A DNA stretch of 64,000 nucleotides from Myxococcales bacterium (GTDB lineage: Bacteria > Myxococcota_A > Polyangia > Polyangiales > Polyangiaceae). The notes under the pieces are model-generated. The model worked only from the letters and a program-made list of their open reading frames with translations. It was not told the DNA's origin and did no database searches. Each line of letters begins with the position of its first letter. Positions within the stretch are counted from its first letter, which is position 1. The DNA lies in contig SXNL01000226.1 in the NCBI GenBank assembly GCA_005777185.1, forward strand, positions 1-64,000, in the 5' to 3' direction. Shown here one piece after another: positions 27,485 through 55,794 of the stretch. A program made the translations under genes and the position numbers.

Positions 27485-28723
27485 TTGGACGGACGCTCCC
27501 TGAGAGGCTCGCCTTGGGCGCGCGTCGCGGTTTTGCTCGGCGTCGTCGTCGCGGGCGCGGTCGCGTGGACCCGATGGCCACGCGGTGACTCGGCGCCACC
27601 GACCGCGGCGACCGCGTACGTCGCCTCGTCCACGCGCGACGTCGGTCGCGAGGACGCGGCGGCGTCAGCCGAGCCCCGCGCCGAGGCCGGCACCGCGTGC
27701 TGCACGGAGCCTCCGCCCCGCTTCGGGCGCTCCGAGGGCGGCGGGCCTCCGGGCATGGTTCCGATCCCCGGCGGGGAGTTCGCGATGGGCGACGCGGCCG
27801 GCGACGGCATGGCCTGGGAGCGCCCCGTCCACACCGTGCGGGTCGATCCGTTCTTCCTCGACGCGTTCGAGGTGACGAACGCGCAGTTCCAGGCCTTCGT
27901 CGCCGCCACCGGGCACAGGACCACCGCGGAGAAGCCGGCCGACCTCGCGGACATCATGCGGCAGCTGCCGCCTGGCACGCCCCCGCCCTCGCCCGACAAG
28001 CTGCGCCCCTCGTCGATGGTGTTCCGGAAGACGCGAGGCCCGGCGAAGCTCGACGTGCCCGGCGACTGGAGCCAGTGGTGGGAGTACGTCGCGGGTGCGG
28101 ACTGGCGCCACCCGTCGGGACAGGACGACACCATCGTGGGCAAGGACTACCTGCCCGTGGTGCAGGTCTCCTGGGACGACGCCGTCGCGTATTGCAGGTG
28201 GGCGGGGCGCCGGCTCCCCACGGAGGCGGAGTGGGAGCGGGCGGCGCGCGGCGGCGAGGCGCGCAAGCGGTTCACGTGGGGGGACGGCGCGTTCGATCCG
28301 GCGAAGCCCCAGGCCAACATCTGGCAGGGGAAGTTCCCGTACGAGAACACGGCCGCGGACGGCTTCGAGGGGACCGCGCCCGTGGGCCGCTTCCCGCCGA
28401 ACGGCTACGGCCTCCACGACATGGCCGGAAACGTGTGGGAGTGGTGCAGCGACTGGTACCGCGCGGACACGTACGCGAAGGCCGCGGCGAAGGGCGTCGC
28501 CGTCGACCCGGCGGGGCCCGAGACGAGCCTCGATCCGGACGAGCCCCACGCGCCGAAGCGCGTGATCCGCGGGGGATCGTACCTCTGCACGACGACCTAC
28601 TGCGCCTCCTTCCGCCCGTCCGCGCGCATGAAGACGAGCCCGGACTCCGCCACGAACCACCAGGGATTCCGCTGCGCGGCGTCGCGGACCGCCGGGGACG
28701 CGAGCGTGGTTGTCCGGCGGTGA
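27485..28723 (+). CDS. Formylglycine-generating enzyme (SUMF1/FGE-type), membrane anchored
   Basis: PGMVPIPGGEFAMG...EVTNAQFQAFV...RRLPTEAEWERAARGG...GYGLHDMAGNVWEWCSDWY...IRGGSYLCTTTYCASFRPSARMKTSPDSATNHQGFRC, with the two FGE active-site Cys positions. Confidence 0.92.
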   Translation: MDGRSLRGSPWARVAVLLGVVVAGAVAWTRWPRGDSAPPTAATAYVASSTRDVGREDAAASAEPRAEAGTACCTEPPPRFGRSEGGGPPGMVPIPGGEFAMGDAAGDGMAWERPVHTVRVDPFFLDAFEVTNAQFQAFVAATGHRTTAEKPADLADIMRQLPPGTPPPSPDKLRPSSMVFRKTRGPAKLDVPGDWSQWWEYVAGADWRHPSGQDDTIVGKDYLPVVQVSWDDAVAYCRWAGRRLPTEAEWERAARGGEARKRFTWGDGAFDPAKPQANIWQGKFPYENTAADGFEGTAPVGRFPPNGYGLHDMAGNVWEWCSDWYRADTYAKAAAKGVAVDPAGPETSLDPDEPHAPKRVIRGGSYLCTTTYCASFRPSARMKTSPDSATNHQGFRCAASRTAGDASVVVRR

Positions 28724-28744
28724 CCCAGCGGTCATAATGCCGGG

Positions 28745-30244
28745 ATGATCCGAGCCACACGGAGCGGTTGGCGGGCGCGGGTCCTCGGCGCCGCGACGTT
28801 CGCCGCCTCGATCGCCATGGGCGCCGCGTGTGGAAGCGATGGACCGGGCGCGCCCGCGCTCGCCGACGAAGCGGGCGCCAGCGGGGACGCGACCGGCGCC
28901 GACGCCGCCGCCGACGATGCGCCCACCGCGGTGGACGCCGGCAGAGACGGCGCGTCCCCGGACGCCGCGCCGACCGACGCGGGGAAGCCGCCGCTCCCCA
29001 ACATCCTCTTCGTCATCGGCGACGACTTCGGCATCGACGGAAACGTCTGCTACGCGATCGCGGCCGATCCGGGGCGGGCTCCGCGCGTGGCCGCGCTTTG
29101 CGCGCGCGGCGTGGTGTTCGACAACGCCTGGGCGGCCCCCGTCTGCTCGCCGACGCGCGCCGCCATCCTCACGGGAAGGCACGGCTTCCGGAACACGGTG
29201 GGCACCGTGGGGTTGCCGCTCCCGCTCAGCGAGCGCGCGCTCCCCCTCGCGCTCACCGACGGAAACCCGAGCTACGTGACGGCCGCGTTCGGCAAATGGC
29301 ACCTCTCCACGCCCGCGAACGGGGGCCCGAACCACCCGAACATGGTCGGCTTCTCCCGGTACGCAGGGAGCCTCCCCGCGGCCGTGCCCAGCTTCTTCAA
29401 CTGGACGCGCACCGTCGATGGCGTCAGCGCGAACGAGACGGGCTACGCCACGACCGTCAACGTGAACGACGCGCGCGACTGGATCGCGCTCCAGACCAGG
29501 CCGTGGTTCGTGTGGCTCGCGTTCAACGCGGCGCACTCGCCGTTCCACGTGCCGCCGGCGGCGCTTCACACGTACACGGGGCTCGCCACACCGCCACCGG
29601 CGCGGCCCATCGACCACTTCCACGCCATGATCGAGGCGATGGACACCGAGCTCGGCCGGCTGCTCGACAGCCTGAAACCGGCGGCCCTCGCGAACACCTG
29701 GATCCTCTTCGCCGGCGACAACGGCACGCCGAACGCGATCAGCTCCGCCCCGATCCCGCCGACGCGCGGCAAGGGCGGGCTCTACCAGGGCGGCATACAG
29801 GTCCCCCTCGTCATCGCGGGCCCGGGTGTCGTCGGAGGCGGCAGGCGCGTGGGCGGGATCGTGCATGTGCTCGATCTCTTCAAGACCATCCTCGAGCTCG
29901 GCCAGGTGGACATGTCCCTCGCCCTGCCCGCGGGCGGCAACACCGTCGACTCGGTGAGCCTCGTCCCGTACCTCACGAACCCTGCGCAAGCACCGCTGCG
30001 CACCACGGTCATGACCGAGGTGTTCGGCGGCGCGCCGTTCGCGGGCGGGCAGCCGGGGAAGACGATGCGCGACAAGGACTTCAAGCTCATCCGCTTCGAC
30101 AGCGGCACGCTCGAGCTCTACGATCTCCGCACGGATCCCTACGAGGCGATCAACCTCATCACGGCCGGCCCGCTGAGCGCGGAGGCCGCGACGCACCTGG
30201 CCGACCTCACGGCCGCCCTCGACGCGCTCCTCGCGTCGCCCTGA
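28745..30244 (+). CDS. Cys-type sulfatase, lipoprotein
   Basis: MGAAC lipobox; NILFVIGDDFGID...VFDNAWAAPVCSPTRAAILTGRHGF (C-S-P-T-R); AAFGKWHLS; LFAGDNGTPN. Confidence 0.93.
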   Translation: MIRATRSGWRARVLGAATFAASIAMGAACGSDGPGAPALADEAGASGDATGADAAADDAPTAVDAGRDGASPDAAPTDAGKPPLPNILFVIGDDFGIDGNVCYAIAADPGRAPRVAALCARGVVFDNAWAAPVCSPTRAAILTGRHGFRNTVGTVGLPLPLSERALPLALTDGNPSYVTAAFGKWHLSTPANGGPNHPNMVGFSRYAGSLPAAVPSFFNWTRTVDGVSANETGYATTVNVNDARDWIALQTRPWFVWLAFNAAHSPFHVPPAALHTYTGLATPPPARPIDHFHAMIEAMDTELGRLLDSLKPAALANTWILFAGDNGTPNAISSAPIPPTRGKGGLYQGGIQVPLVIAGPGVVGGGRRVGGIVHVLDLFKTILELGQVDMSLALPAGGNTVDSVSLVPYLTNPAQAPLRTTVMTEVFGGAPFAGGQPGKTMRDKDFKLIRFDSGTLELYDLRTDPYEAINLITAGPLSAEAATHLADLTAALDALLASP

Positions 30245-30290: not shown

Positions 30291-30914
30291 TCACGTGCTT
30301 CGAGCTGCCGACGCCCTGGAGCGCGAGATGCCCGCGCTGTCGAACAGCCCCGCGCGGGCGGCCACACGCAGCACCGCGCGCGCCGCTTCGTCATCCCGGA
30401 GGAGGATCTGGTGCGTCCCGAGACCGTCGAAGATGGCGAGGACGAGGCGGGTCGTCGCAGCGATCTCCCGCGCGTCGTCGACGTGGGGGAGCAGCACGGC
30501 GTGACACAGCCGCTCGGCCCGCGCGACGAGCCGTGCGTCGACCGCGGCGACGAGGGCGCGCAGCTCCGCATCCGTGCGGGAGGCGACCACCAGCTCGAGC
30601 CACGCGTAGTAGGTGTCACCCGTGTAGACCGACCACAGGAACGACGCCGCGTCCGCCAGATCGATCACCGTCGGGCACGCCCCGATCCGTCGCTCCAGGT
30701 CGGCGACGCGCTTCGTGAAGAGGTGCTCGACGGCCGCCGCCACGAGCTCCTGCTTCGTGCGGAAGTGGTGGAGCTGCGCGCCGCGGGACACCCCGGCGCG
30801 GCGGCAGATCTCCGGCGTGGACGCGCCCCGGTAGCCCGCGTCGATCAGCGCGGCGAGGGTCGCGTCGAGGAGCCGCTCGGTCGTGGCCGCGGTTCGTTCC
30901 GCCTGGGTCGACAT
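30291..30914 (-). CDS. TetR family transcriptional regulator
   Basis: TTERLLDATLAALIDAGYRGASTPEICRRAGVSRGAQLHHFRTKQELVAAAV HTH. Confidence 0.93.
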   Translation of the reverse strand: MSTQAERTAATTERLLDATLAALIDAGYRGASTPEICRRAGVSRGAQLHHFRTKQELVAAAVEHLFTKRVADLERRIGACPTVIDLADAASFLWSVYTGDTYYAWLELVVASRTDAELRALVAAVDARLVARAERLCHAVLLPHVDDAREIAATTRLVLAIFDGLGTHQILLRDDEAARAVLRVAARAGLFDSAGISRSRASAARST

Positions 30915-30938: not shown

Positions 30939-30962
30939 AACAAACAGTCAAGACTGTTTGTT
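30939..30962. promoter_or_regulatory. Inverted repeat aacaaacagtc-aa-gactgtttgtt; probable TetR operator
   Basis: Two exact 11-nt arms with a 2-nt centre, in the tetR/kinase divergent intergenic region. Confidence 0.75.
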
Positions 30963-31001: not shown

Positions 31002-33389
31002 GTGCCTGTTCGCCGGGACTCGGTCCTCGCGCGGAGCCCCATGATCGGCACCTTGATCGACGGCAAGTACCAGGTCGTCCGCATGCTCGGCTCGGGCGGG
31101 ATGGCGACCGTCTACGAGGGCCGGCACGCGGCGACCGGCCGCAGGGTGGCGATCAAGCTCATCACGAGCAAAGCCGGACAGGCCGAGCAGCTCGTCGCGC
31201 GGTTCCAGCGCGAAGCGCGCGCCGCCGGCGCCATCGACAGCGAGCACATCGTCCAGATCCTCGACGCGGGCAGGGACGACAAGAGCGGGTTCCCGTTCCT
31301 GGTCATGGAGCTCCTCGAGGGTGACGATCTCGAGCGCCTCGTCGCTCGCCACGGACCGCTCCCTCCCTCCCTGGCGCTGCGCATCCTCGCGCAGGCGTGC
31401 CTGGGCGTCCAGAAGGCCCACGATGCAGGCGTCGTGCACCGCGACCTCAAGCCCGCGAACATCTTCGCCGCGAACCGCGACGAGGGCCGCGTCGTGATCA
31501 AGGTGCTCGACTTCGGCATCGCCAAGATCGCCGAGCCCATGGCGCTCCCGGTGAGCAGCCTCACGGGCACCAACAGCCTGCTCGGATCGCCCCTGTACAT
31601 GTCGCCCGAGCAGGCGCGCGGCTTCAAGGACATCGATCACCGCACCGACGTGTTCTCGCTCGGCGTCGTGCTCTACGCGATGCTCACGGGCAAGGTGCCG
31701 CACGCCGACGTGGGCGCCATCGGCGAGCTCATCTTCGCGATCTGCGGCACGCCAGCGAAGCGCGTCGAGGAGGTGGCGCCGTGGGTCCCGCCGGAGATCG
31801 GCGCGATCGTGCACCGCGCGCTCCACATCGAGCGCGCGGATCGCTACCAGACCGTCGCGGCGATGCACGAGGCGATACGACCGCTCGTCGGCGGCGACTC
31901 CGCGCTCCTCCGATCGATGTTCGTCGGCGTGGCGGGCCCGCGCACGGAGTCTGTCATCTCGTCGGATCCGGAGAAGCAGCGTGACAGCTTCACGCTCGGC
32001 GACACGGGCCTCTCCGGCGAGAACCCACGCACGCCGGCCCCGATGGACAGCCCCGCAGCCTCGCCGGACGCGGCGCCGCCGGAGCCGCGTCTGACCCTCC
32101 AGCGCACGTCAGAGTCCAACCTCGGCCGCACGGGCGCCGCCGGCGCGAAGCGACCCGAGGACGCCGTGTCCGTCGCCTCCTCACCTGCTCCCCGATCGAG
32201 CCCGCCGGGGTCGGGCCAGGAGACCGCGCCCGGCGCCGCGAAGGACGCCTCGCTGGGAACGACGGGGACGACGCCGCGCCGCGCGTCCACGGGCCTCGCC
32301 CTCGGGGTCACCGCGGCCGTCGTCATCGGCGGGCTCGTGGGGTGGGATCTCTGGGCCCGCTCGCACGCGAAGCACGCGGGGCTCCTCCCCGCGCCGTCCG
32401 CGAGCGCCTCCGTGCATGCCGTCAAGGACACCATCGACGACGACGTGCTGCGGAGCTTCTCCCCGCTGCCCGCCGTCGTCACGAGCGCGAAGAACCCGCT
32501 CAACGAGGACAAGATCGCGCTCGGGCGCCTGTTGTTCTACGATCCGCGCCTCTCGAAAGCGCACGATGTGTCGTGCGCTTCGTGCCACTCGCTCGAGAAG
32601 CACGGGGTCGACGGCCTCCGCTTCTCCACGGGCCACGCGCACATGCAGGGCACACGCAACGCGCTCACCGTGTACAACAGCGCGGGCTTCTTCGCGCTCA
32701 TGTGGGACGGGCGCTTCGAGAACGTCGAGAAGCAGGCGTCCGGGCCCATCGCCTCGGCCGTGGAGATGGCCCAGAACCCCGGCAAGATCGAGGCCGTGCT
32801 CAGGTCGATCCCCGGCTACGTCGCGCTCTTCGCGAAGGCCTTCCCGGGCGAGAAGGCGCCGCTGTCCTTCGAGAACGCCACGCGGGCCATCGGCGCCTTC
32901 GAGCGCAAGCTCCTCACGCCGGGCCGCTGGGACCGGTTCCTCCAGGGCGACCGCTCCGCCCTCACCAGCGCGGAGCGCGCCGGCTTCAACACCTTCGTGG
33001 ACGTGGGCTGCGTGCAGTGCCATTCGGGGACGTACGTCGGTGCGTCGTCGTTCCAGAAGCTCGGCCTCGTCAAGGCCTGGGGCGAGACGCGAGACCGGGG
33101 CCGCTTCGAGGTCACCAAGGAGGAGTCCGACTTCATGGTCTTCCGCGTGCCGCGCCTGCGCAACGTCGCGATGACCGCGCCGTACTTCCACGATGGCGCC
33201 ATCAGCTCGCTCGACGAGGCCGTCCGTCTCATGGGGCGTCATCAGATCGGGAAGGAACTCACGCCGCAGCAGGTGTCCTCGATCGTGACGTGGCTCAGGG
33301 CGCTCACGGGCGAGCTGCCGCTCGAGTACGCGAGGAAGCCCGAGCCGTTCCCTAGCGGGCCGACCACGCCGAAGCCCGCGACGGACTGA
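31002..33389 (+). CDS. Transmembrane Ser/Thr protein kinase fused to a di-heme cytochrome-c peroxidase (CCP/MauG-like) domain
   Basis: Kinase: VRMLGSGGMATVYEG, VAIK, VVHRDLKPANI, LDFGIAK, MSPEQ; TM: GLALGVTAAVVIGGLVGWDLW; CCP: LGRLLFYDPRLS...VSCASCHSLEKHGVDGL...LMWDGRFENVEKQASGPI...GCVQCHSGTYVG...RVPRLRNVAMTAPYFHDGAISSLDEAV. Confidence 0.93.
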   Translation: MPVRRDSVLARSPMIGTLIDGKYQVVRMLGSGGMATVYEGRHAATGRRVAIKLITSKAGQAEQLVARFQREARAAGAIDSEHIVQILDAGRDDKSGFPFLVMELLEGDDLERLVARHGPLPPSLALRILAQACLGVQKAHDAGVVHRDLKPANIFAANRDEGRVVIKVLDFGIAKIAEPMALPVSSLTGTNSLLGSPLYMSPEQARGFKDIDHRTDVFSLGVVLYAMLTGKVPHADVGAIGELIFAICGTPAKRVEEVAPWVPPEIGAIVHRALHIERADRYQTVAAMHEAIRPLVGGDSALLRSMFVGVAGPRTESVISSDPEKQRDSFTLGDTGLSGENPRTPAPMDSPAASPDAAPPEPRLTLQRTSESNLGRTGAAGAKRPEDAVSVASSPAPRSSPPGSGQETAPGAAKDASLGTTGTTPRRASTGLALGVTAAVVIGGLVGWDLWARSHAKHAGLLPAPSASASVHAVKDTIDDDVLRSFSPLPAVVTSAKNPLNEDKIALGRLLFYDPRLSKAHDVSCASCHSLEKHGVDGLRFSTGHAHMQGTRNALTVYNSAGFFALMWDGRFENVEKQASGPIASAVEMAQNPGKIEAVLRSIPGYVALFAKAFPGEKAPLSFENATRAIGAFERKLLTPGRWDRFLQGDRSALTSAERAGFNTFVDVGCVQCHSGTYVGASSFQKLGLVKAWGETRDRGRFEVTKEESDFMVFRVPRLRNVAMTAPYFHDGAISSLDEAVRLMGRHQIGKELTPQQVSSIVTWLRALTGELPLEYARKPEPFPSGPTTPKPATD

Positions 33390-40271: not shown

Positions 40272-43200
40272 CTACATTCCCTCACTCCCCGGACGTGGCT
40301 CGGCGGGGAGCGGGGGCGGCGTGGGCCGCGGGATGACGGGCGGAAGTGGCGCCTTCCTCCACAGACCTCCCATCGCGAACGACGTCCACCCCCAGCGCAG
40401 CCAACCGAGCAGCGCGAACGCCGTCCAGAGCGCCCACGTCAGCATCACCCCGCGGTACACGAGCACGGGAACCGACACGATCCACGGCGCCGCGAGCGCG
40501 GGGCCGGAGCGGTCGACGTACCACCTCAGGAGATGCGGGCTCGACCCGTTCCCCCGCACCTGCATCTCGGGAGCACCGAGCAGCCCCTGGTGGATCGCGA
40601 CCATCAGGACGACGAGCGCGAGGACGGTCAGCGGCACGATGCCGATCTGGCGGAGGTTGAACGTCCAGCGGCGGCCCCCGTCGTCGCCCGTGTCCTTCCT
40701 GCGGCGTCCGAGCGCGAAGAGCCACCCGACGAAGACGGCGCCGAGCACGAGGCTCACCTGCGAGAGGCCGATCGCGAGCAGCAGCCAGTGCCACGAGCGG
40801 AGGGGGGTGGACGTCGTCCGACCGAGGAGCAGCGCCACGACGGCGAGGATCGCGAGGAGGCTCCAGAAGAGCACCGCCGGCCCCGCGCCGGGACCTCCCA
40901 CGAGCAGCAGCCAGCGCCCCTGGGACACCTCGAGCGTGGTGCTCGCGTTCACCGACGGCGCCCCGAGGTCGGCCGTGCGCGCGCGGAAGAAGGCGCCGAT
41001 CCCCACGGGGTCACGCCACGTCGCGACCACCGCCTGCGCGCCTGGCACGAGCGGGATCGTGACCTTGCGCCCGTCCTGTCTCAGAGGCTGCGCGCGACCC
41101 GCGACCGTGAGCGTCTCGAGGACCGCCCCCTCGGGAAGGAGCAGCGTGTGCTCGCCGCCGCGGCTCGAACGGAGCGTCGCGGTGAGCGTCGCGTCGGTCG
41201 CGCGCAGTCCCGGACGAAACGCCGTGACGGAGTCATCGATGGTGAGCGTCTGCCCCGGAACGCCGGCCGGGCGATCGAGCGCGACGAGCACCTCCTCGCC
41301 GGGCCACGGGTGGAACGCGGGGATCCGGACGCTCGTGCCGGACGCGGCGTGGATGGGCGGGATGCCGCCGTAGGAGGCGTGCCAGATGGGCCCCACGTCC
41401 ACGTTCCAGATCTCGGTCCACGAGGGGCTGCGCGGGGCGGCGAGCCGGATGGGGGATCGCTGCTCGAGGACCGAGTGCCATGTCACCTCGGACACCTGAG
41501 GCCCCATGTTGACGAGCGCCTTGCCGCCCGAGACGCGGAGGTCGGTGGTGACGTTCTCCCCCGGCAGGAGCGGGATCTCGAGCACGACGGCTGCGCCGGG
41601 CGGCGTCGCGCGGACGACGCGCGTGTCCACCTGCCAGTTGAGACCTATCTGGAGGGTGCGCTCGACACGCACGAACGGGGGTAGGACGCCGGGCTGTAGC
41701 GAGGCGCCCGCGCCCTCCCTTCGCACGCGGGTGAGCTGCAGGTTCTCGTCGGCGAGGCCGTCCTCGTGGACCCCCTCGACCGTCCATCCGGTGGCGGACA
41801 CCTCGACACGGTGCGGGCGTAGAGGGAGCGCGATCTGCACCGTCTCGCGATCGGGAAGCTCGCCCTCGAGCACCACCTGGTGGTTGCCCGGGGAGAGGAG
41901 GAGCCAGAGCGCGCCCGTCTCGAGCCGGGCCAGCCCACGCGCCGGCTGGCCGTCGAGGAGCACCTCGCGCGGCGTCCACTGCGCGAGCGATCCGGGGAGC
42001 GGCACCGCCGTCGGCGCGATGGCGTCGACCTCCATGCGGGCGCGGAGCGTCGCGCCCTTCGCCTCGAGGATCATCCGTGGGCTCGACGCGCACGATGGCG
42101 TGCACTCGGGCTTTCGGCTCAGGCGCTCCCTGAGCTCCTCGAGCGTCTTCGCGTCGGGGACCTGCGCGCGCGCCCGGCCCTCGACCGCCAGGAGCGCGAC
42201 CATCGAGAGCGCGGCGACCACGACGCGCGCGACCGGCGGCGCACCCCATGCCCCGGGCAGCCTTCCGGCGAGGAACGGCAGCGTCCTCGCGAGCAGGATG
42301 CCGAGCAGGACCGCGCGGAGCAGCGCGAGCGCCAGGTTGGCCCTCGGTGACAGGAGATGCACCTCCAGCCGCTGGCCGCGCGTGACCGGCCCGTTCCACT
42401 GCAGGGAGATCGTCGTCCACGTCCACTTCGGGACGCCCGGTCCGGTCTGGACGATGGCCTGCGGGTCGTACTCGATCGGGTTCTGCAGCTTGGCGCGACC
42501 CGCGTCGTACCGCGACGGTACCTTGCGGAGCGAACCTGCCTTCGACTGCGCGTGCGCCTTCTCCTCCCCCTCGCGCTCGCCACGGAGATCTTGCGCACCG
42601 TCCCCGTCGACCTTGGCGTCCTCCTCCGCGGCGGGCACCGAGACCGGCGGGGAAGCGCTCTTCCGCATGCCGAGATCGAGCAGCCCCGAGGAAGACCTCT
42701 CGATGCTCTCGCCACCCGACCCGACGACGGCGTCCGCGTTGGTCAACGAGGGAAAGAGGCCTTCGCGCACGTGGGCCACGACGAACGCGAGCGACAGGAG
42801 GGCCACGAGGACCGCAGCGGCGAGGCGCGCGCCCATGAACAGACGCCGCGCCGTGCTGGGCTCGGGGAGCACCCGGAACAGCGCCTCCGTCCCGAGGACG
42901 AACGCCCACGTCCATCTCGGCGCGCCGTCCTCCGGAAACGTGAGCAAGAATGCGCACGCCGCGATCACGCCCCACCGCGCTCCGTACAGTCGGCCCGCGG
43001 CGACGGCGAGGACGAGCGCAAGGAAGATCTCGAGCAGCGACCAGTGCTTCACCCACGTCCCCGACGCGTCGTCCGCGCCCGACACGTGGAGGAGGCGCCA
43101 CCCGGGCGGCAGGTGCAGCACCGCGGAGACCTTGTGGAAGTCGTGTGCCCAGCCGACCGCGGGCAGGTCGCGTGGGTCGCCCGGTATCCAGCTGTCGGCG

Positions 43201-44471
43201 TCGACGGTGAGCGTCCCCTGTCGCACCTCGATGCCCGCGCTCGGGGAGCCCGCGGCGCGCGTGATGAACTGATCCTTGCCCGCGATCGCGGCCCTGCCGA
43301 GCTCGGTAGGGGCCGCCATGGTCAGCCGCGAGTCGCGGTTCAGGGTCCCCGTGATGCGGTCCTTCACGGTGTAACCGCCGCCGGCGAATTCGAGCCAGAG
43401 CGTGCGATCGAGGGTGAGCTGGTCCGGGGGTGGCTCGGCGTCCCCGCGGCGCCGTTCCACGAGCCGCATCGTGGCGCCGAGCTTCATTCCGTGAGCGGGG
43501 AGCTTCTTCCAGGCGTCGGGCAGGGTCGTCTGCTGGGGATCGATCGACGTGACACCCTCGACCGTGACGAGGCGGAGATCGTTCCGGGCGTCGAAGACCC
43601 AGACCTCGTCTCCCTCGCGCCAGGGTCCGTCGGGCGCCGGCCGCGAGAGTGTGCCCACCGGGCCGTCGCTACGCGCGACGAGCTCGATCACGAACACGCC
43701 GGGGCGGACCTGCACGCGGAGCCGCCCATCCGGCTCCACGCGGGCGGGGAGCGGCGCCTCGAGCGACATCGCGACGAACCCCGGCGGGAGCGCGCGACCC
43801 GTGACGATCTCCCGGTTCTTCCCGGACACGTGGAGCTCGATGCGCGTCGTGAGGAGGAGCGGGACGGCGTCGGTGACCTTGCGGTGGACGACGAGCTCGA
43901 GGGCGTCGCCCTCCTCGCCCGCGGTGCGCGTCTTGTGGAGCCACACGATCCCCTGCGCGTCGCGGTTGACGCTCGATACCGGGACACCGCGGAGCGTGAG
44001 CTGGACGAGCCCGGTGTCGGCTGGGATCCGGAGGGACTCCGGCAACGTGTCCCAGGCAAACGCGCCGGTGATGACGTGATCGCCCGGCTCGAGCGTGAGC
44101 CTCGGCGCCCCCTCCTTCTCGACGACGACGGCGTCCTTTCCGTCGACCTTGACGTCCTGGGGCCAGCGCTTGGCGTCGCCCGCGAGCGGGATGGTCTGGC
44201 GCGCTCCTTCGACATGCCAGCGCTGCGAGAAGCGGCCCGCTCGCTCGTCCAGGGAGAGGTCGATCCGGGAGGGCCACGCGCAGCGCGACATGTCGGCGTG
44301 GCCCTGGAAGAACGGGCAGGGGGCCTTGCCGTCGAGCGCCCACGAGACCCACGGCTCGAGGGAGGGCGGGATCTCCTTCGGATCGATCGGCCCCTTCGCG
44401 CGCGCCGGGAGCGCGACGAGGAGCGCGGCCAGCGCGAGCGTGAGCAGGAGAAGACGCCTGGGCATCTGCAC
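40272..44471 (-). CDS. Very large (1399 aa) multi-domain membrane protein of unknown function
   Basis: Signal peptide MPRRLLLLTLALAALLVALPARA; long beta-rich segments alternating with clustered hydrophobic helices; single uninterrupted frame of 4.2 kb. Confidence 0.8.
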   Translation of the reverse strand: MQMPRRLLLLTLALAALLVALPARAKGPIDPKEIPPSLEPWVSWALDGKAPCPFFQGHADMSRCAWPSRIDLSLDERAGRFSQRWHVEGARQTIPLAGDAKRWPQDVKVDGKDAVVVEKEGAPRLTLEPGDHVITGAFAWDTLPESLRIPADTGLVQLTLRGVPVSSVNRDAQGIVWLHKTRTAGEEGDALELVVHRKVTDAVPLLLTTRIELHVSGKNREIVTGRALPPGFVAMSLEAPLPARVEPDGRLRVQVRPGVFVIELVARSDGPVGTLSRPAPDGPWREGDEVWVFDARNDLRLVTVEGVTSIDPQQTTLPDAWKKLPAHGMKLGATMRLVERRRGDAEPPPDQLTLDRTLWLEFAGGGYTVKDRITGTLNRDSRLTMAAPTELGRAAIAGKDQFITRAAGSPSAGIEVRQGTLTVDADSWIPGDPRDLPAVGWAHDFHKVSAVLHLPPGWRLLHVSGADDASGTWVKHWSLLEIFLALVLAVAAGRLYGARWGVIAACAFLLTFPEDGAPRWTWAFVLGTEALFRVLPEPSTARRLFMGARLAAAVLVALLSLAFVVAHVREGLFPSLTNADAVVGSGGESIERSSSGLLDLGMRKSASPPVSVPAAEEDAKVDGDGAQDLRGEREGEEKAHAQSKAGSLRKVPSRYDAGRAKLQNPIEYDPQAIVQTGPGVPKWTWTTISLQWNGPVTRGQRLEVHLLSPRANLALALLRAVLLGILLARTLPFLAGRLPGAWGAPPVARVVVAALSMVALLAVEGRARAQVPDAKTLEELRERLSRKPECTPSCASSPRMILEAKGATLRARMEVDAIAPTAVPLPGSLAQWTPREVLLDGQPARGLARLETGALWLLLSPGNHQVVLEGELPDRETVQIALPLRPHRVEVSATGWTVEGVHEDGLADENLQLTRVRREGAGASLQPGVLPPFVRVERTLQIGLNWQVDTRVVRATPPGAAVVLEIPLLPGENVTTDLRVSGGKALVNMGPQVSEVTWHSVLEQRSPIRLAAPRSPSWTEIWNVDVGPIWHASYGGIPPIHAASGTSVRIPAFHPWPGEEVLVALDRPAGVPGQTLTIDDSVTAFRPGLRATDATLTATLRSSRGGEHTLLLPEGAVLETLTVAGRAQPLRQDGRKVTIPLVPGAQAVVATWRDPVGIGAFFRARTADLGAPSVNASTTLEVSQGRWLLLVGGPGAGPAVLFWSLLAILAVVALLLGRTTSTPLRSWHWLLLAIGLSQVSLVLGAVFVGWLFALGRRRKDTGDDGGRRWTFNLRQIGIVPLTVLALVVLMVAIHQGLLGAPEMQVRGNGSSPHLLRWYVDRSGPALAAPWIVSVPVLVYRGVMLTWALWTAFALLGWLRWGWTSFAMGGLWRKAPLPPVIPRPTPPPLPAEPRPGSEGM

Positions 44472-51594: not shown

Positions 51595-54500
51595 CACCGC
51601 ACGCGCGCGCCGGACCGACGGCGCCGCACGTACGCGAGCACGGCCACGCCGAGCGCGAGCGACATCGGCGCCTCGCTGCTCCGCGTCTGTGAGCAGCCAC
51701 ACCCGGTCTCCGGCGGAGGCGCCGCCGTGGGACGGGGCAGCACGTGGACGTCGATGCGGCTCGTCGCGGCGCTCACGAGCACGCCGTCGTTCGCGCGGAG
51801 GACGAAGCTCAGCGTGGCCGGGGTGGTGGGCGCGTCGATCTCGGGGAGCGACGCACGGATGCGGTCCGTGGCGCTCCACGGGCTGTCGGGGAGGCCGGCC
51901 TCGCCGCATGCCTGCGCCAGGTGCGCCGGCGCGGGCGCGGCCGAGCCTCCGCGCACCGTGAGCGGCGGGCCCGCGACCTGGGTCCACGTGAAGCCGAGCG
52001 GATCCACCGGGATCGGCGCGGCGTCGGTGCCCCCGGGGCGCACGCCGCAGCCCGTGAGGCGCAGCGCATCCCCCACGAAGACGCACGCGGTCGAGGTGCA
52101 CATCGCCTTCTCGGCGGGGCCGAGCCGGTCGAGCGTCTTCTGCGGCGTCGGTGTCGCGAGGACCTTCGCGCTCGGCGCCTTCGCGTCGCAGCCGTCGGCG
52201 TGCGGGACGAAGCCCCAGAAGGGCGTCGAGCTGATCCCCCCGAGCGAGACGTCGTCCACGTCCCACCCCTCCGCCCCGAAGAAGCCGGTCGCCGATCCTG
52301 TGCGGAAGCGGATCAGGACCTTGCCATCCTTGGGTCGCTCGCGGAGCGCGACCGCGATCTTCCCCTCGACCCACGCCGGGTAGCCCGCGCTCTTGAAGAC
52401 GTACGCGGGGCGAGCCTGGCCCGCGGGGACGTCCTTCAGGAGCGGGTTGTCGCTGAGGCGCCCGGGGCTGCCGGGGTCGATCTTCCCCGGGTACGCGAGC
52501 TTCGGATCGGAGACGCTGGACACGTCGACCCAGGTGACACCGTTGTCCACCGAAAGCTCGATCACGCCACCGTCCACGTCGACGTTGCGCCGCGTGGAGT
52601 GCCGGAAGCTGTGGCGGTGCCGGAACGACAGCGTGAAGGTCGCCTCGTCGATCGTGAAGGGAGCGGACGTGAGCCTCTGCTCGACCGGCAGGGGCTGGTC
52701 GGGGACCGTCCAGAACGTGCCATCCGCCGGGGTCGCCTTGCGCGACCACTTGATGGCCGCCCCGCCGGGACCCGTGACCTTCCACGACGTGTTCTTCGCC
52801 TCCATCGAGTCGATGGCGGACTTCTGGTCCTCGTCGGTGTTCGCGCGACCCTGCACCGGCGCCGACAGGACGCGCGGTCGGAGCAAGGTCGGATCGGTGA
52901 CGCGGACGTCGAGCTGGATCGGGCCCGACTTGCTGCCCCGGACGACCGCGCCGGTCCTGGCCGTGCGCGTCTCGAAGGGCCGAAGCGGTCCCACCATGGT
53001 GCGGACCGTGCCGACCGTTCGGCCCTTGTCGTCGAGGAAGGTGACGTCCGGAGAAGGGGTCGAGATCTCGACGGCGGTGTCCGCGAGGGCCCCCACGCCG
53101 ACGTTCCGGACGACCACCTCGACCGCGCCGACCTCGCCCTCGTCGAGGAACGGGTCGTGGTCGCACGTGAGCGCACCCGTCACGAGGACGGCGCTCACGA
53201 TGCGGATGTCGTTGCCCACGTCGAAGCTCTCGATCACGCCCACGTTGTTCGTGCTCTCCTTCGAGGGCCCGCTGGCGCCGACGCCCGCGCCACGGCGCGC
53301 GAACGCCTGGTAGAAGACCTGGAAGTCCCGCTCGTCCCCGGCCAGGCTCGTGGCGAGGAGGGCGTCGCGCGCCTCGATGAGGGTCGGGTCGACCGGCGTG
53401 GTCTTCATCGCCGAGACGAGGTAACGCGCCATGCGCGCCTGCGCTTCGTCGTACGAGAGACGACCCTCGGCGAGCAGCGACGCGTAGCACTCCCACAGCA
53501 TCGACGCCCAGACCTCGCCGGTGGCGTGCACCTCGGCATTGAAGCTCCCATCCTCGCCGAAGCTGATGGGGACGCCGGTGGGCAGCGGTGTGCCGTTCTG
53601 GATGTGCTTGAACGTGAGAGGGTTCTTCCTGAAATCCGTGGAGTAGGGGAGCCGCCGGATGCCGAAGTAATAGTCCGCGCCCGATCCCATCGTCGCGTAG
53701 GCGCCCTTCGGGTACACGCCCGCCCAGCCGCGGCCGGCGGGCGTCTCGACGTCGTCCTTGCGCGCCACGAGCAGGAGCGCCAGGAAGTCGGCCCACCCCT
53801 CGCCGAGGCCGCCCGCCTGGTTGGTGGCGAGGCCGCTACCGTTCCCGATGAGCCGGCTCGACAGGACGTGGCCCCACTCGTGGGCGACGATGGAGGTGTC
53901 GAGCCCGCCATCGAGGTCGACCTGCGGGAAGCGGCGCATCTGCACGGTGGCCGTCCCCGTCGTCGCGGCGGCCTCGAGCGCCTGCCCGTCGGCGAGGTTC
54001 AAGGACAGGATAGGGATGGTGATCCTGTCGCTCGTGCCTCCCATGAACGGCGGCGATCCGGGATCGGCGGAGCTGGGGACGTTGACGACGACCACGCCCA
54101 CCGCGCCCTGATCCTGGACGGCCTGCGCCTTCTGTACGAACGAGCACTGCCCGCGGTGGACGAGCACGATCTTGCCCGCGATGTTCCCCTGTAGCTCCCC
54201 GTCGCACGCGTCGGCGCGATCCGGATCGGCGTTGTCGGCGGCCACGACGACCTGCGCCGTGACGTCGAAGGCGTCCTTCCCGAACCCCGCCAGACCCACC
54301 GCCTTGTCCCCGGCGACGGGGGAAGGAGGGGGCACGTTGAGGACCGCCGTGCTCGGCCCGGAGAACACGAACATCTGGATCCGCGGCGACGCGCCGTCGC
54401 CCGGGACCGTGGCGTTGGCGTTGTTCTTCCCGCTGTAGTCCAGCGCCTCGACGAGGAGCGGATCGTTCTCCTTGCCCCCGCGGAAGAGGTTCTTCGCCTG

Positions 54501-55709
54501 GTGGTTGCCCGACTTCTCGTCGAAGCCGGCGTCGTAGAACCAGTCGTGCAGGAAGTTGGTCGTGTAGAAGAGGTGCGTGATCGACGCGCGGATCGAATTG
54601 GGCCTCGCCACGGGGGACGCGGTGGTGTCGTACACGTAGTCGAAGGTCGACGGCGACGTGAGCGCGGGCTGGGTGTCCAGGGCGCCACCGAGGCCGTCCG
54701 GCGTGGACAGGTCGGCGTACGCCGAGACGTTGTTGCCCATCGTGGTGGACGCGCCCGGAGGCAGCCAGGGATCGTTGCGCGAGAAGGGGTAGTTGGCGAT
54801 CGTGACGAGCGCCCCGGGGACGAACGACGGCTTGTACCTGTCGGGCTTGCCGGTGGGGTGCGGGATCGTGGCGTTGCCCTGTGGACCGTCCATGGGGATG
54901 AGGGTCTTGGCGTCCGCGTACACGCGGTAGGTGTAGGCATCGGCGTGGACGAGGCTGGTCGAGAAGAGGATCTCGCCGTCGACCGCCGAGACGACGAAGG
55001 AGGTTCCGCCCGATCGACGGCCGACCAGCTCCACGTGCCAGCCGGGGACCACGCCCTCGGCGAGAGGGAAGAGGACACGGCGCGCGCGCGAGAGGGAGAG
55101 CGCGGCGTCGCCGGCGAAGTGCGTGTACTCTCCGTCCGTCTCGCGCGCCGTGAAGGCCGCGGCTCCCCCCGTCATCGCGTGATGCGCCGTCGCGACGGCG
55201 GTGGCGGGGAGGACCGTGAAGGGCGTGTCGGCGCCCGAGAGCTGGGGCACGACGAGTCCCGAGGCCGCGACCGGCTCGAGGGCGCGGTTCATCGTCAGGT
55301 TGAGACCGCCGCGGAAGACCTCCACGCCGCCGACGGCCTGTCGGTAGCGGGCGACGATCGGACCCTGGCCGACGTCGTGGATCACGGGCTCTCCGAGGGA
55401 GGCGAGCGCCGCCGGACGCCACGAGAGCGCGGGCGCGAGGACCGCGATCGTCGCGCGGGCGGCGTCGGCCGGGGTCTCGAGCGACGAGGGGGCGTGGGCG
55501 GTGCCGGACCCCGACAGGGGCCGGCCCGTGAGCCACACGAAGGACGGCAGGCCGAGCCTGGCGTCGACGTGGGCCACGTGGACCGCAAAGGGGGCCGTGG
55601 CCCGGGCCGTGACCTCGGGCGGAGGGGATCGGGGTTGGTCTCCGACGGCGCAGGCGCTGAGGAGAAGACCGGACAGGAGGACGATCCCCGCGGAGCGCGA
55701 TCGGAGCAT
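51594..55709 (-). CDS. M36 (fungalysin)-type secreted metalloprotease with PA-domain insert and MYXO-CTERM tail
   Basis: LLSGLLLSAC lipobox; KIVLVHRGQCSFVQKAQAVQDQGAVGVVVVN (PA); SIVAHEWGHVLSSRLIG...GGLGEGWADF; C-terminal GCGCSQTRSSEAPMSLALGVAVLAYVRRRR. Confidence 0.92.
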   Translation of the reverse strand: MLRSRSAGIVLLSGLLLSACAVGDQPRSPPPEVTARATAPFAVHVAHVDARLGLPSFVWLTGRPLSGSGTAHAPSSLETPADAARATIAVLAPALSWRPAALASLGEPVIHDVGQGPIVARYRQAVGGVEVFRGGLNLTMNRALEPVAASGLVVPQLSGADTPFTVLPATAVATAHHAMTGGAAAFTARETDGEYTHFAGDAALSLSRARRVLFPLAEGVVPGWHVELVGRRSGGTSFVVSAVDGEILFSTSLVHADAYTYRVYADAKTLIPMDGPQGNATIPHPTGKPDRYKPSFVPGALVTIANYPFSRNDPWLPPGASTTMGNNVSAYADLSTPDGLGGALDTQPALTSPSTFDYVYDTTASPVARPNSIRASITHLFYTTNFLHDWFYDAGFDEKSGNHQAKNLFRGGKENDPLLVEALDYSGKNNANATVPGDGASPRIQMFVFSGPSTAVLNVPPPSPVAGDKAVGLAGFGKDAFDVTAQVVVAADNADPDRADACDGELQGNIAGKIVLVHRGQCSFVQKAQAVQDQGAVGVVVVNVPSSADPGSPPFMGGTSDRITIPILSLNLADGQALEAAATTGTATVQMRRFPQVDLDGGLDTSIVAHEWGHVLSSRLIGNGSGLATNQAGGLGEGWADFLALLLVARKDDVETPAGRGWAGVYPKGAYATMGSGADYYFGIRRLPYSTDFRKNPLTFKHIQNGTPLPTGVPISFGEDGSFNAEVHATGEVWASMLWECYASLLAEGRLSYDEAQARMARYLVSAMKTTPVDPTLIEARDALLATSLAGDERDFQVFYQAFARRGAGVGASGPSKESTNNVGVIESFDVGNDIRIVSAVLVTGALTCDHDPFLDEGEVGAVEVVVRNVGVGALADTAVEISTPSPDVTFLDDKGRTVGTVRTMVGPLRPFETRTARTGAVVRGSKSGPIQLDVRVTDPTLLRPRVLSAPVQGRANTDEDQKSAIDSMEAKNTSWKVTGPGGAAIKWSRKATPADGTFWTVPDQPLPVEQRLTSAPFTIDEATFTLSFRHRHSFRHSTRRNVDVDGGVIELSVDNGVTWVDVSSVSDPKLAYPGKIDPGSPGRLSDNPLLKDVPAGQARPAYVFKSAGYPAWVEGKIAVALRERPKDGKVLIRFRTGSATGFFGAEGWDVDDVSLGGISSTPFWGFVPHADGCDAKAPSAKVLATPTPQKTLDRLGPAEKAMCTSTACVFVGDALRLTGCGVRPGGTDAAPIPVDPLGFTWTQVAGPPLTVRGGSAAPAPAHLAQACGEAGLPDSPWSATDRIRASLPEIDAPTTPATLSFVLRANDGVLVSAATSRIDVHVLPRPTAAPPPETGCGCSQTRSSEAPMSLALGVAVLAYVRRRRSGARVR

Positions 55710-55794
55710 GTCCGGCGTTAGTTAGCGGAAGGCGCCCCGGAAAAAAAGGGCCGCGGACAAACCCTCCGCGGGTCTCGCCCGTCGAAGCTCGACC

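Follow-up and report, generated by a model that had tools for sequence, protein, structure and literature searches.

A Hanks-type Ser/Thr kinase joined to a di-heme cytochrome c peroxidase domain in Polyangiaceae: a candidate redox receptor

The fused gene and its surroundings

The window analysed here is a stretch of 64,000 nucleotides from a Myxococcales soil bacterium of the family Polyangiaceae. Coordinates refer to this window and residue numbers to a 782-residue protein that starts with ATG. The frame 31002-33389 on the plus strand contains no internal stop, and the Pkinase (PF00069) and CCP_MauG (PF03150) families are both matched within the same uninterrupted protein. The original prediction of one polypeptide carrying a kinase, a transmembrane (TM) helix and a cytochrome c peroxidase (CCP) domain is thereby borne out: the domain scan that it proposed found both families, the frame runs without a stop from the linker into the CCP domain, where a break had been considered beforehand, and the kinase motifs, TM helix, CASCH and CVQCH lie exactly where it placed them. 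Its span was right as an open frame and is revised at the start. A GTG at 31002 would give 795 residues; the protein probably has 782, because its homologues start at the position that matches the ATG at 31041 and not at the GTG. The features of the locus and of the N-terminal half are as follows.

30291..30914, minus strand: TetR-family regulator gene, divergent from the fused gene (PF00440, 2.6e-13)
30939..30962, no strand: 24-bp perfect palindrome AACAAACAGTC-AA-GACTGTTTGTT in the divergent intergenic space, unique in the genome
31041..33389, plus strand: fused gene, 782 amino acids plus stop (open frame; start by homologue alignment)
31068..31865, plus strand: Hanks-type Ser/Thr kinase, residues 10-275 (Pfam PF00069, 6e-44; motifs)
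31089-31121, plus strand: GSGGMATVYEG motif
31146-31157, plus strand: VAIK motif (K39)
31437-31463, plus strand: HRDLKPANI motif (HRD, residues 133-135)
31509-31517, plus strand: DFG motif (residues 157-159)
31602-31610, plus strand: SPE motif (residues 188-190)
31893..32285, plus strand: juxtamembrane linker rich in Pro, Ser and Ala, approximately residues 285-415, predicted to be disordered
32286..32354, plus strand: single TM helix, residues 416-438 (hydropathy)

Judged by its sequence, the protein is a Hanks-type Ser/Thr protein kinase: the Pfam model scores 150.9 bits (cut-off 31.7), and the Gly loop, catalytic Lys, HRD, DFG and APE-like motif are all kept. The nearest solved kinases are PknB, StkP and Stk. 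In the full-length AlphaFold model the linker has a pLDDT of about 25 (residues 285-424) and a helix occupies residues 419-446. The hydropathy peak of the TM segment (1.9) is the only one above 1.6, and in all ten fused proteins described below a lone TM segment separates kinase from CCP, with Lys and Arg enriched on the kinase side. This single peak between the domains and the excess of basic residues place the CCP domain outside the cytoplasm; the predicted topology is type II single-pass, with a cytoplasmic N-terminus and a periplasmic CCP. Heme c attachment takes place outside the cytoplasm, in the periplasm, and the genome of the window holds three matches to the cytochrome c assembly family PF01578. 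Two further frames of this genome, G000:C96:558-2453 and G000:C213:4127-5860 (L004 and L006; 925 and 805 amino acids), each contain two kinase domains and appear to encode tandem double-kinase proteins.

The fused gene stands alone. The window and the Sorangium loci that carry a related gene share no neighbour and no conserved electron-donor or substrate gene, which counts against the receptor model given below; the conserved downstream neighbour in Sorangium is LolA-like. The palindrome next to the divergent TetR gene has an expected chance count of 0, and in seven further genomes of the family it adjoins, with two or fewer mismatches, genes for TetR homologues (42-73% identity), where no fused gene lies within the 1.5 kb read around it. 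As the palindrome accompanies TetR homologues without the fused gene, it is most likely the operator of TetR itself; control of the fused gene by TetR is a possibility suggested by the spacing. A promoter and terminator scan gave no matches. Elsewhere in the window, a formylglycine-generating-enzyme-like gene (PF03781) stands directly before a sulfatase gene (PF00884) at 27485-30244, a plausible maturase-substrate pair. On the minus strand, a 1399-residue frame at 40275-44471 contains several hydrophobic stretches and matches no Pfam family, and a frame at 51597-55721 resembles, at 34%, a metallopeptidase of the M36 fungalysin type that has PKD domains.

The di-heme peroxidase domain

The features of the C-terminal half are listed below, with aligned residues given in the numbering of Pseudomonas aeruginosa CCP (PaCCP).

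32430..33386, plus strand: di-heme cytochrome c peroxidase domain, extracytoplasmic (PF03150 plus Cytochrom_C; model)
32574..32588, plus strand: CASCH, P-heme c attachment (H516; motif, alignment)
32634..32636, plus strand: H532, P-heme distal ligand (PaCCP H71; aligned residue)
32703..32705, plus strand: W555, inter-heme electron-bridge Trp (PaCCP W94; aligned residue)
32733..32735, plus strand: Q565, catalytic Gln (PaCCP Q104; aligned residue, role from PMC10094543)
32763..32765, plus strand: E575, catalytic Glu (PaCCP E114; aligned residue, role from PMC10094543)
33009..33023, plus strand: CVQCH, E-heme c attachment (H661; motif, alignment)
33156-33197, plus strand: conserved block LRNVAMTAPYFHDG (motif)
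33231..33233, plus strand: M731, E-heme axial Met (PaCCP M275; aligned residue)

Pfam matches CCP_MauG at residues 490-638 (1e-49) and Cytochrom_C at residues 648-755, and the domain aligns over its full length with solved bacterial CCPs (E about 1e-81). The CCP part of the full-length AlphaFold model, which was built on a nine-row alignment, is poor, and a separate domain model from 75 homologues (pLDDT 95.7) was used for it. Its closest PDB structure in a Foldseek search is mixed-valence MacA (4aam; TM score 0.95, rmsd 1.5 Å). With two CxxCH motifs and the Trp, Met, Gln and Glu in place, the domain is a bacterial di-heme CCP by sequence and predicted fold. His717 is also kept, and N540, T712 and P714 of the Ca site named for CCPs (PMC10094543) are invariant in the nine aligned proteins.

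The region had been described earlier as of CCP/MauG type. The two-heme CCP part of that description holds and the MauG-like part does not, because the E-heme is of the His/Met type, with M731 as its axial Met. A heme enzyme of the MauG/MbnH kind would oxidise a partner protein, and the kinase would report the reaction; we consider this improbable. The NCBIfam models of both families do match, far below their curated cut-offs (MbnH 164 against 362.85 bits, MauG 157 against 443.85 bits), and membership of either family was rejected, for MauG also on the Met that stands in place of Tyr. The best CCP structures reach TM scores of 0.88-0.95, compared with 0.75 for MauG, and the comparison of window and Sorangium loci gives no conserved partner gene.

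Single Glu or Gln variants of Neisseria gonorrhoeae CCP are inactive, so that both residues are required (PMC10094543). Since both are kept, the CCP of the window can probably reduce peroxide; it and its closest fused relatives (group A, below) retain every peroxidase catalytic residue. The protein could therefore be a membrane-tethered periplasmic peroxidase whose main task is H2O2 reduction, the kinase reporting or tuning something else or responding secondarily to turnover. In keeping with this, no other CCP was detected in the genome of the window, which is 82% complete, and CCPs anchored in the membrane exist, as in Escherichia coli YhjA (9qdt). Against it, four Sorangium genomes (G020, G122, G123 and G124) also encode a separate, unfused CCP, and the kinase motifs are fully conserved in the alignment of fused proteins. 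Together with the relatives discussed below, these points leave the tethered peroxidase a minority reading, at about one chance in five in our estimate expressed loosely. One position departs from the classical enzymes: where PaCCP has its dimer-stacking Trp73, each of the five group A proteins has a His (32640-32642, in a GHAH motif) that no unfused CCP among the 75 shares.

Fused relatives, their origin and selection

Searching with the CCP part and then examining reading frames identified ten fused proteins, spread over nine of the 108 Polyangiaceae genomes, the window included. The nine further genes, eight of them full-length, come from eight other genomes and fall with the window into three groups.

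Group A: window, G020, G122, G123, G124
Group B: G116, a second locus in G122, G126, G125
Group C: G083

The group B gene of G125 (L114:939-2504) lacks the kinase N-lobe and may be a decayed gene or an assembly break. We take G122 to be Sorangium cellulosum So0157-2 (PMC3696898) and G123 to be So ce26 (NZ_CP012673.1). Among long-frame CCP matches in the wider order, class and phylum (G157 and G142 left out), none has a kinase in its frame, and a whole-protein search of genome contigs returned only kinase relatives. In G122, a gene that joins a kinase to an nSTAND1 NTPase domain (L102:14060-17233) lies roughly 4 kb away from the group A gene, and a homologue of the M36-like frame (L107:1-2454) adjoins the group B gene, possibly by coincidence.

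The assembly of the window is fragmented (413 contigs), and a frame error or mis-assembly of two adjacent genes could in principle have created the fusion. The original prediction had asked whether the joined architecture occurs in other genomes. It does: independent genomes, some of them single-contig assemblies that include those taken as S. cellulosum, encode the same architecture with 61-63% identity in the CCP and 55-58% in the kinase. The artefact is thereby ruled out, with a residual chance that we regard as negligible.

With 55 unfused CCPs in the tree, the ten fused ones group as a single clade (bootstrap 100, SH-aLRT 99, recovered in 100% of bootstrap trees). The kinases of groups A, B and C fall in three lineages, each placed among unfused kinases that the same genomes encode. 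Constraining the A and B kinases together is 152 log units worse (p-AU 6e-60), and constraining all three together 280 log units worse (p-AU 4e-60); a clade of the window and Sorangium group A kinases is not rejected by the AU test (p 0.59). A single ancestral fusion that carried its kinase into all groups was rejected by these tests. Because the CCPs are one clade while the kinases belong to at least three lineages, the trees indicate that a single CCP lineage has been paired repeatedly with different kinases. Either several fusions of one CCP lineage or at least two kinase replacements would fit them. Repeated pairing would be expected if the coupling of kinase and CCP were itself useful.

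Selection was estimated as dN/dS by a simple counting method. Among the Sorangium group A orthologues the values are 0.22-0.31 for the kinase, 0.25-0.62 for the CCP and 0.8-1.0, nearly neutral, for the linker; the group B CCP gives 0.24-0.28. These ratios indicate purifying selection on both ends of the protein. In all four group B proteins the catalytic Glu (E114) is Ala and the distal His (H71) is Ser, and both CxxCH motifs, the Trp, the Gln and the axial Met are retained; group C has Asn in place of the distal His. Loss of the distal His is by itself uninformative, as it also occurs among unfused CCPs (kept in 55 of 75). The Glu is kept in 74 of the 75. The strongest argument that use of the CCP in this family goes beyond catalysis alone is the loss of this Glu in group B, where hemes, Trp and Met are maintained under purifying selection. 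It favours sensing over catalysis in group B and counts against a tethered peroxidase.

The original prediction also offered a peroxidase under kinase control, in which phosphorylation inside the cell would alter the activity of the CCP attached outside. A Ser/Thr-rich linker that could be autophosphorylated speaks for this, but the domains lie on opposite sides of the membrane with a disordered linker between them, and the catalytic Glu is missing from group B; we now consider it a distinctly unlikely arrangement.

A receptor model and its relation to known systems

We favour a single-pass transmembrane Ser/Thr receptor kinase whose complete di-heme CCP ectodomain reports the periplasmic redox or peroxide state, probably by way of dimerisation, with a probability of roughly 0.58. 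Of the earlier proposal of a receptor reading peroxide or redox state through heme, the architecture is fully confirmed; sensing is the best-supported reading, given the monophyletic CCPs, their repeated pairing with different kinases, purifying selection on both ends and the heme sites kept in group B despite its lost catalytic residues. The broader proposal, that a single CCP lineage acts as an exchangeable sensor module on at least three kinase lineages, in part as a non-catalytic pseudoperoxidase, and relays the state of periplasmic peroxide or electron transport to Ser/Thr phosphorylation, we regard as an even call.

In known CCPs, reduction of the E-heme shifts the loop with the distal His toward the dimer interface, and dimerisation can be Ca-dependent (PMC10094543). 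In the model, a periplasmic donor would reduce the E-heme and H2O2 would react, so that the CCP toggles between an oxidised closed and a mixed-valence open state. The toggle would move the loop bearing the distal His of the P-heme to the dimer interface, as in those enzymes, and the shift would alter the association of two receptors and turn trans-autophosphorylation of the kinases on or off, by analogy with the proposal for PASTA-type receptor kinases. In group A peroxide is probably still reduced, which would couple turnover to sensing; group B would likely sense only heme redox state or a ligand. Signalling by the fused protein, its heme loading, ligand, direction of signal and dimer switch are all parts of this model. 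Because Trp73 is replaced by His, the dimer switch of known CCPs may not hold here unchanged. Rigid conformational transmission is unlikely through a long linker that is disordered in the model, and signalling would need to be association-based; dimer association is the likeliest route.

The overall plan is that of the PASTA-type receptor kinases (PknB, StkP, Stk1/PrkC): an N-terminal Hanks kinase, a juxtamembrane linker, a single TM helix and a C-terminal extracytoplasmic domain. The window protein differs from them in lacking PASTA repeats (Pfam; NF033483, 271 bits against a cut-off of 450) and in carrying a di-heme redox protein where they carry a peptidoglycan binder. With the classical CCPs (MacA/CcpA of Geobacter sulfurreducens, P. 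aeruginosa CcpA and N. gonorrhoeae CcpR) it shares the domain, hemes, Met, Trp, Gln/Glu and Ca site; it differs in the kinase joined through a TM helix and in the His at Trp73, and the group B relatives differ further in lacking the catalytic Glu and distal His. The CCP of the tri-heme YhjA is likewise carried on an N-terminal membrane anchor (TM score 0.84 to the CCP domain model), but YhjA carries a further heme domain and lacks a kinase. MauG and MbnH, of the same CCP_MauG superfamily, modify protein or peptide partners, and MauG has Tyr instead of Met at one heme. The Geobacter chemoreceptors GSU0582 and GSU0935 also couple a periplasmic c-type heme sensor across the membrane, with a dimerisation-based model (PMC3460858, PMC8396549), but theirs is a one-heme PAS fold with chemoreceptor output rather than a di-heme CCP with a Ser/Thr kinase.

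The earlier statement that no description of this fusion was known agrees with searches of the open-access literature, which gave no account of a CCP-kinase fusion. The nine further genes show that other genomes carry the fusion too. General papers on kinase architectures are silent on cytochrome and peroxidase domains, as is the CCP_MauG network paper on fusions with kinases, and an entry in the myxobacterial kinome paper (Perez 2008) is possible. The kinase-CCP protein points to a redox or peroxide receptor of an apparently undescribed kind. If the reading is true, it would to our knowledge be the first Ser/Thr kinase with a di-heme c sensor.

Myxobacteria have hundreds of Ser/Thr kinases per genome, and signals are known for a minority of them. 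Here the ectodomain is a very well-understood redox enzyme with a spectroscopic read-out for each heme state, which makes the input of a receptor kinase directly testable. If the receptor model is correct, periplasmic peroxide or respiration would be linked to intracellular phosphorylation, and the active group A, the His-less group C and the Glu- and His-less group B would form a natural series from enzyme to sensor.
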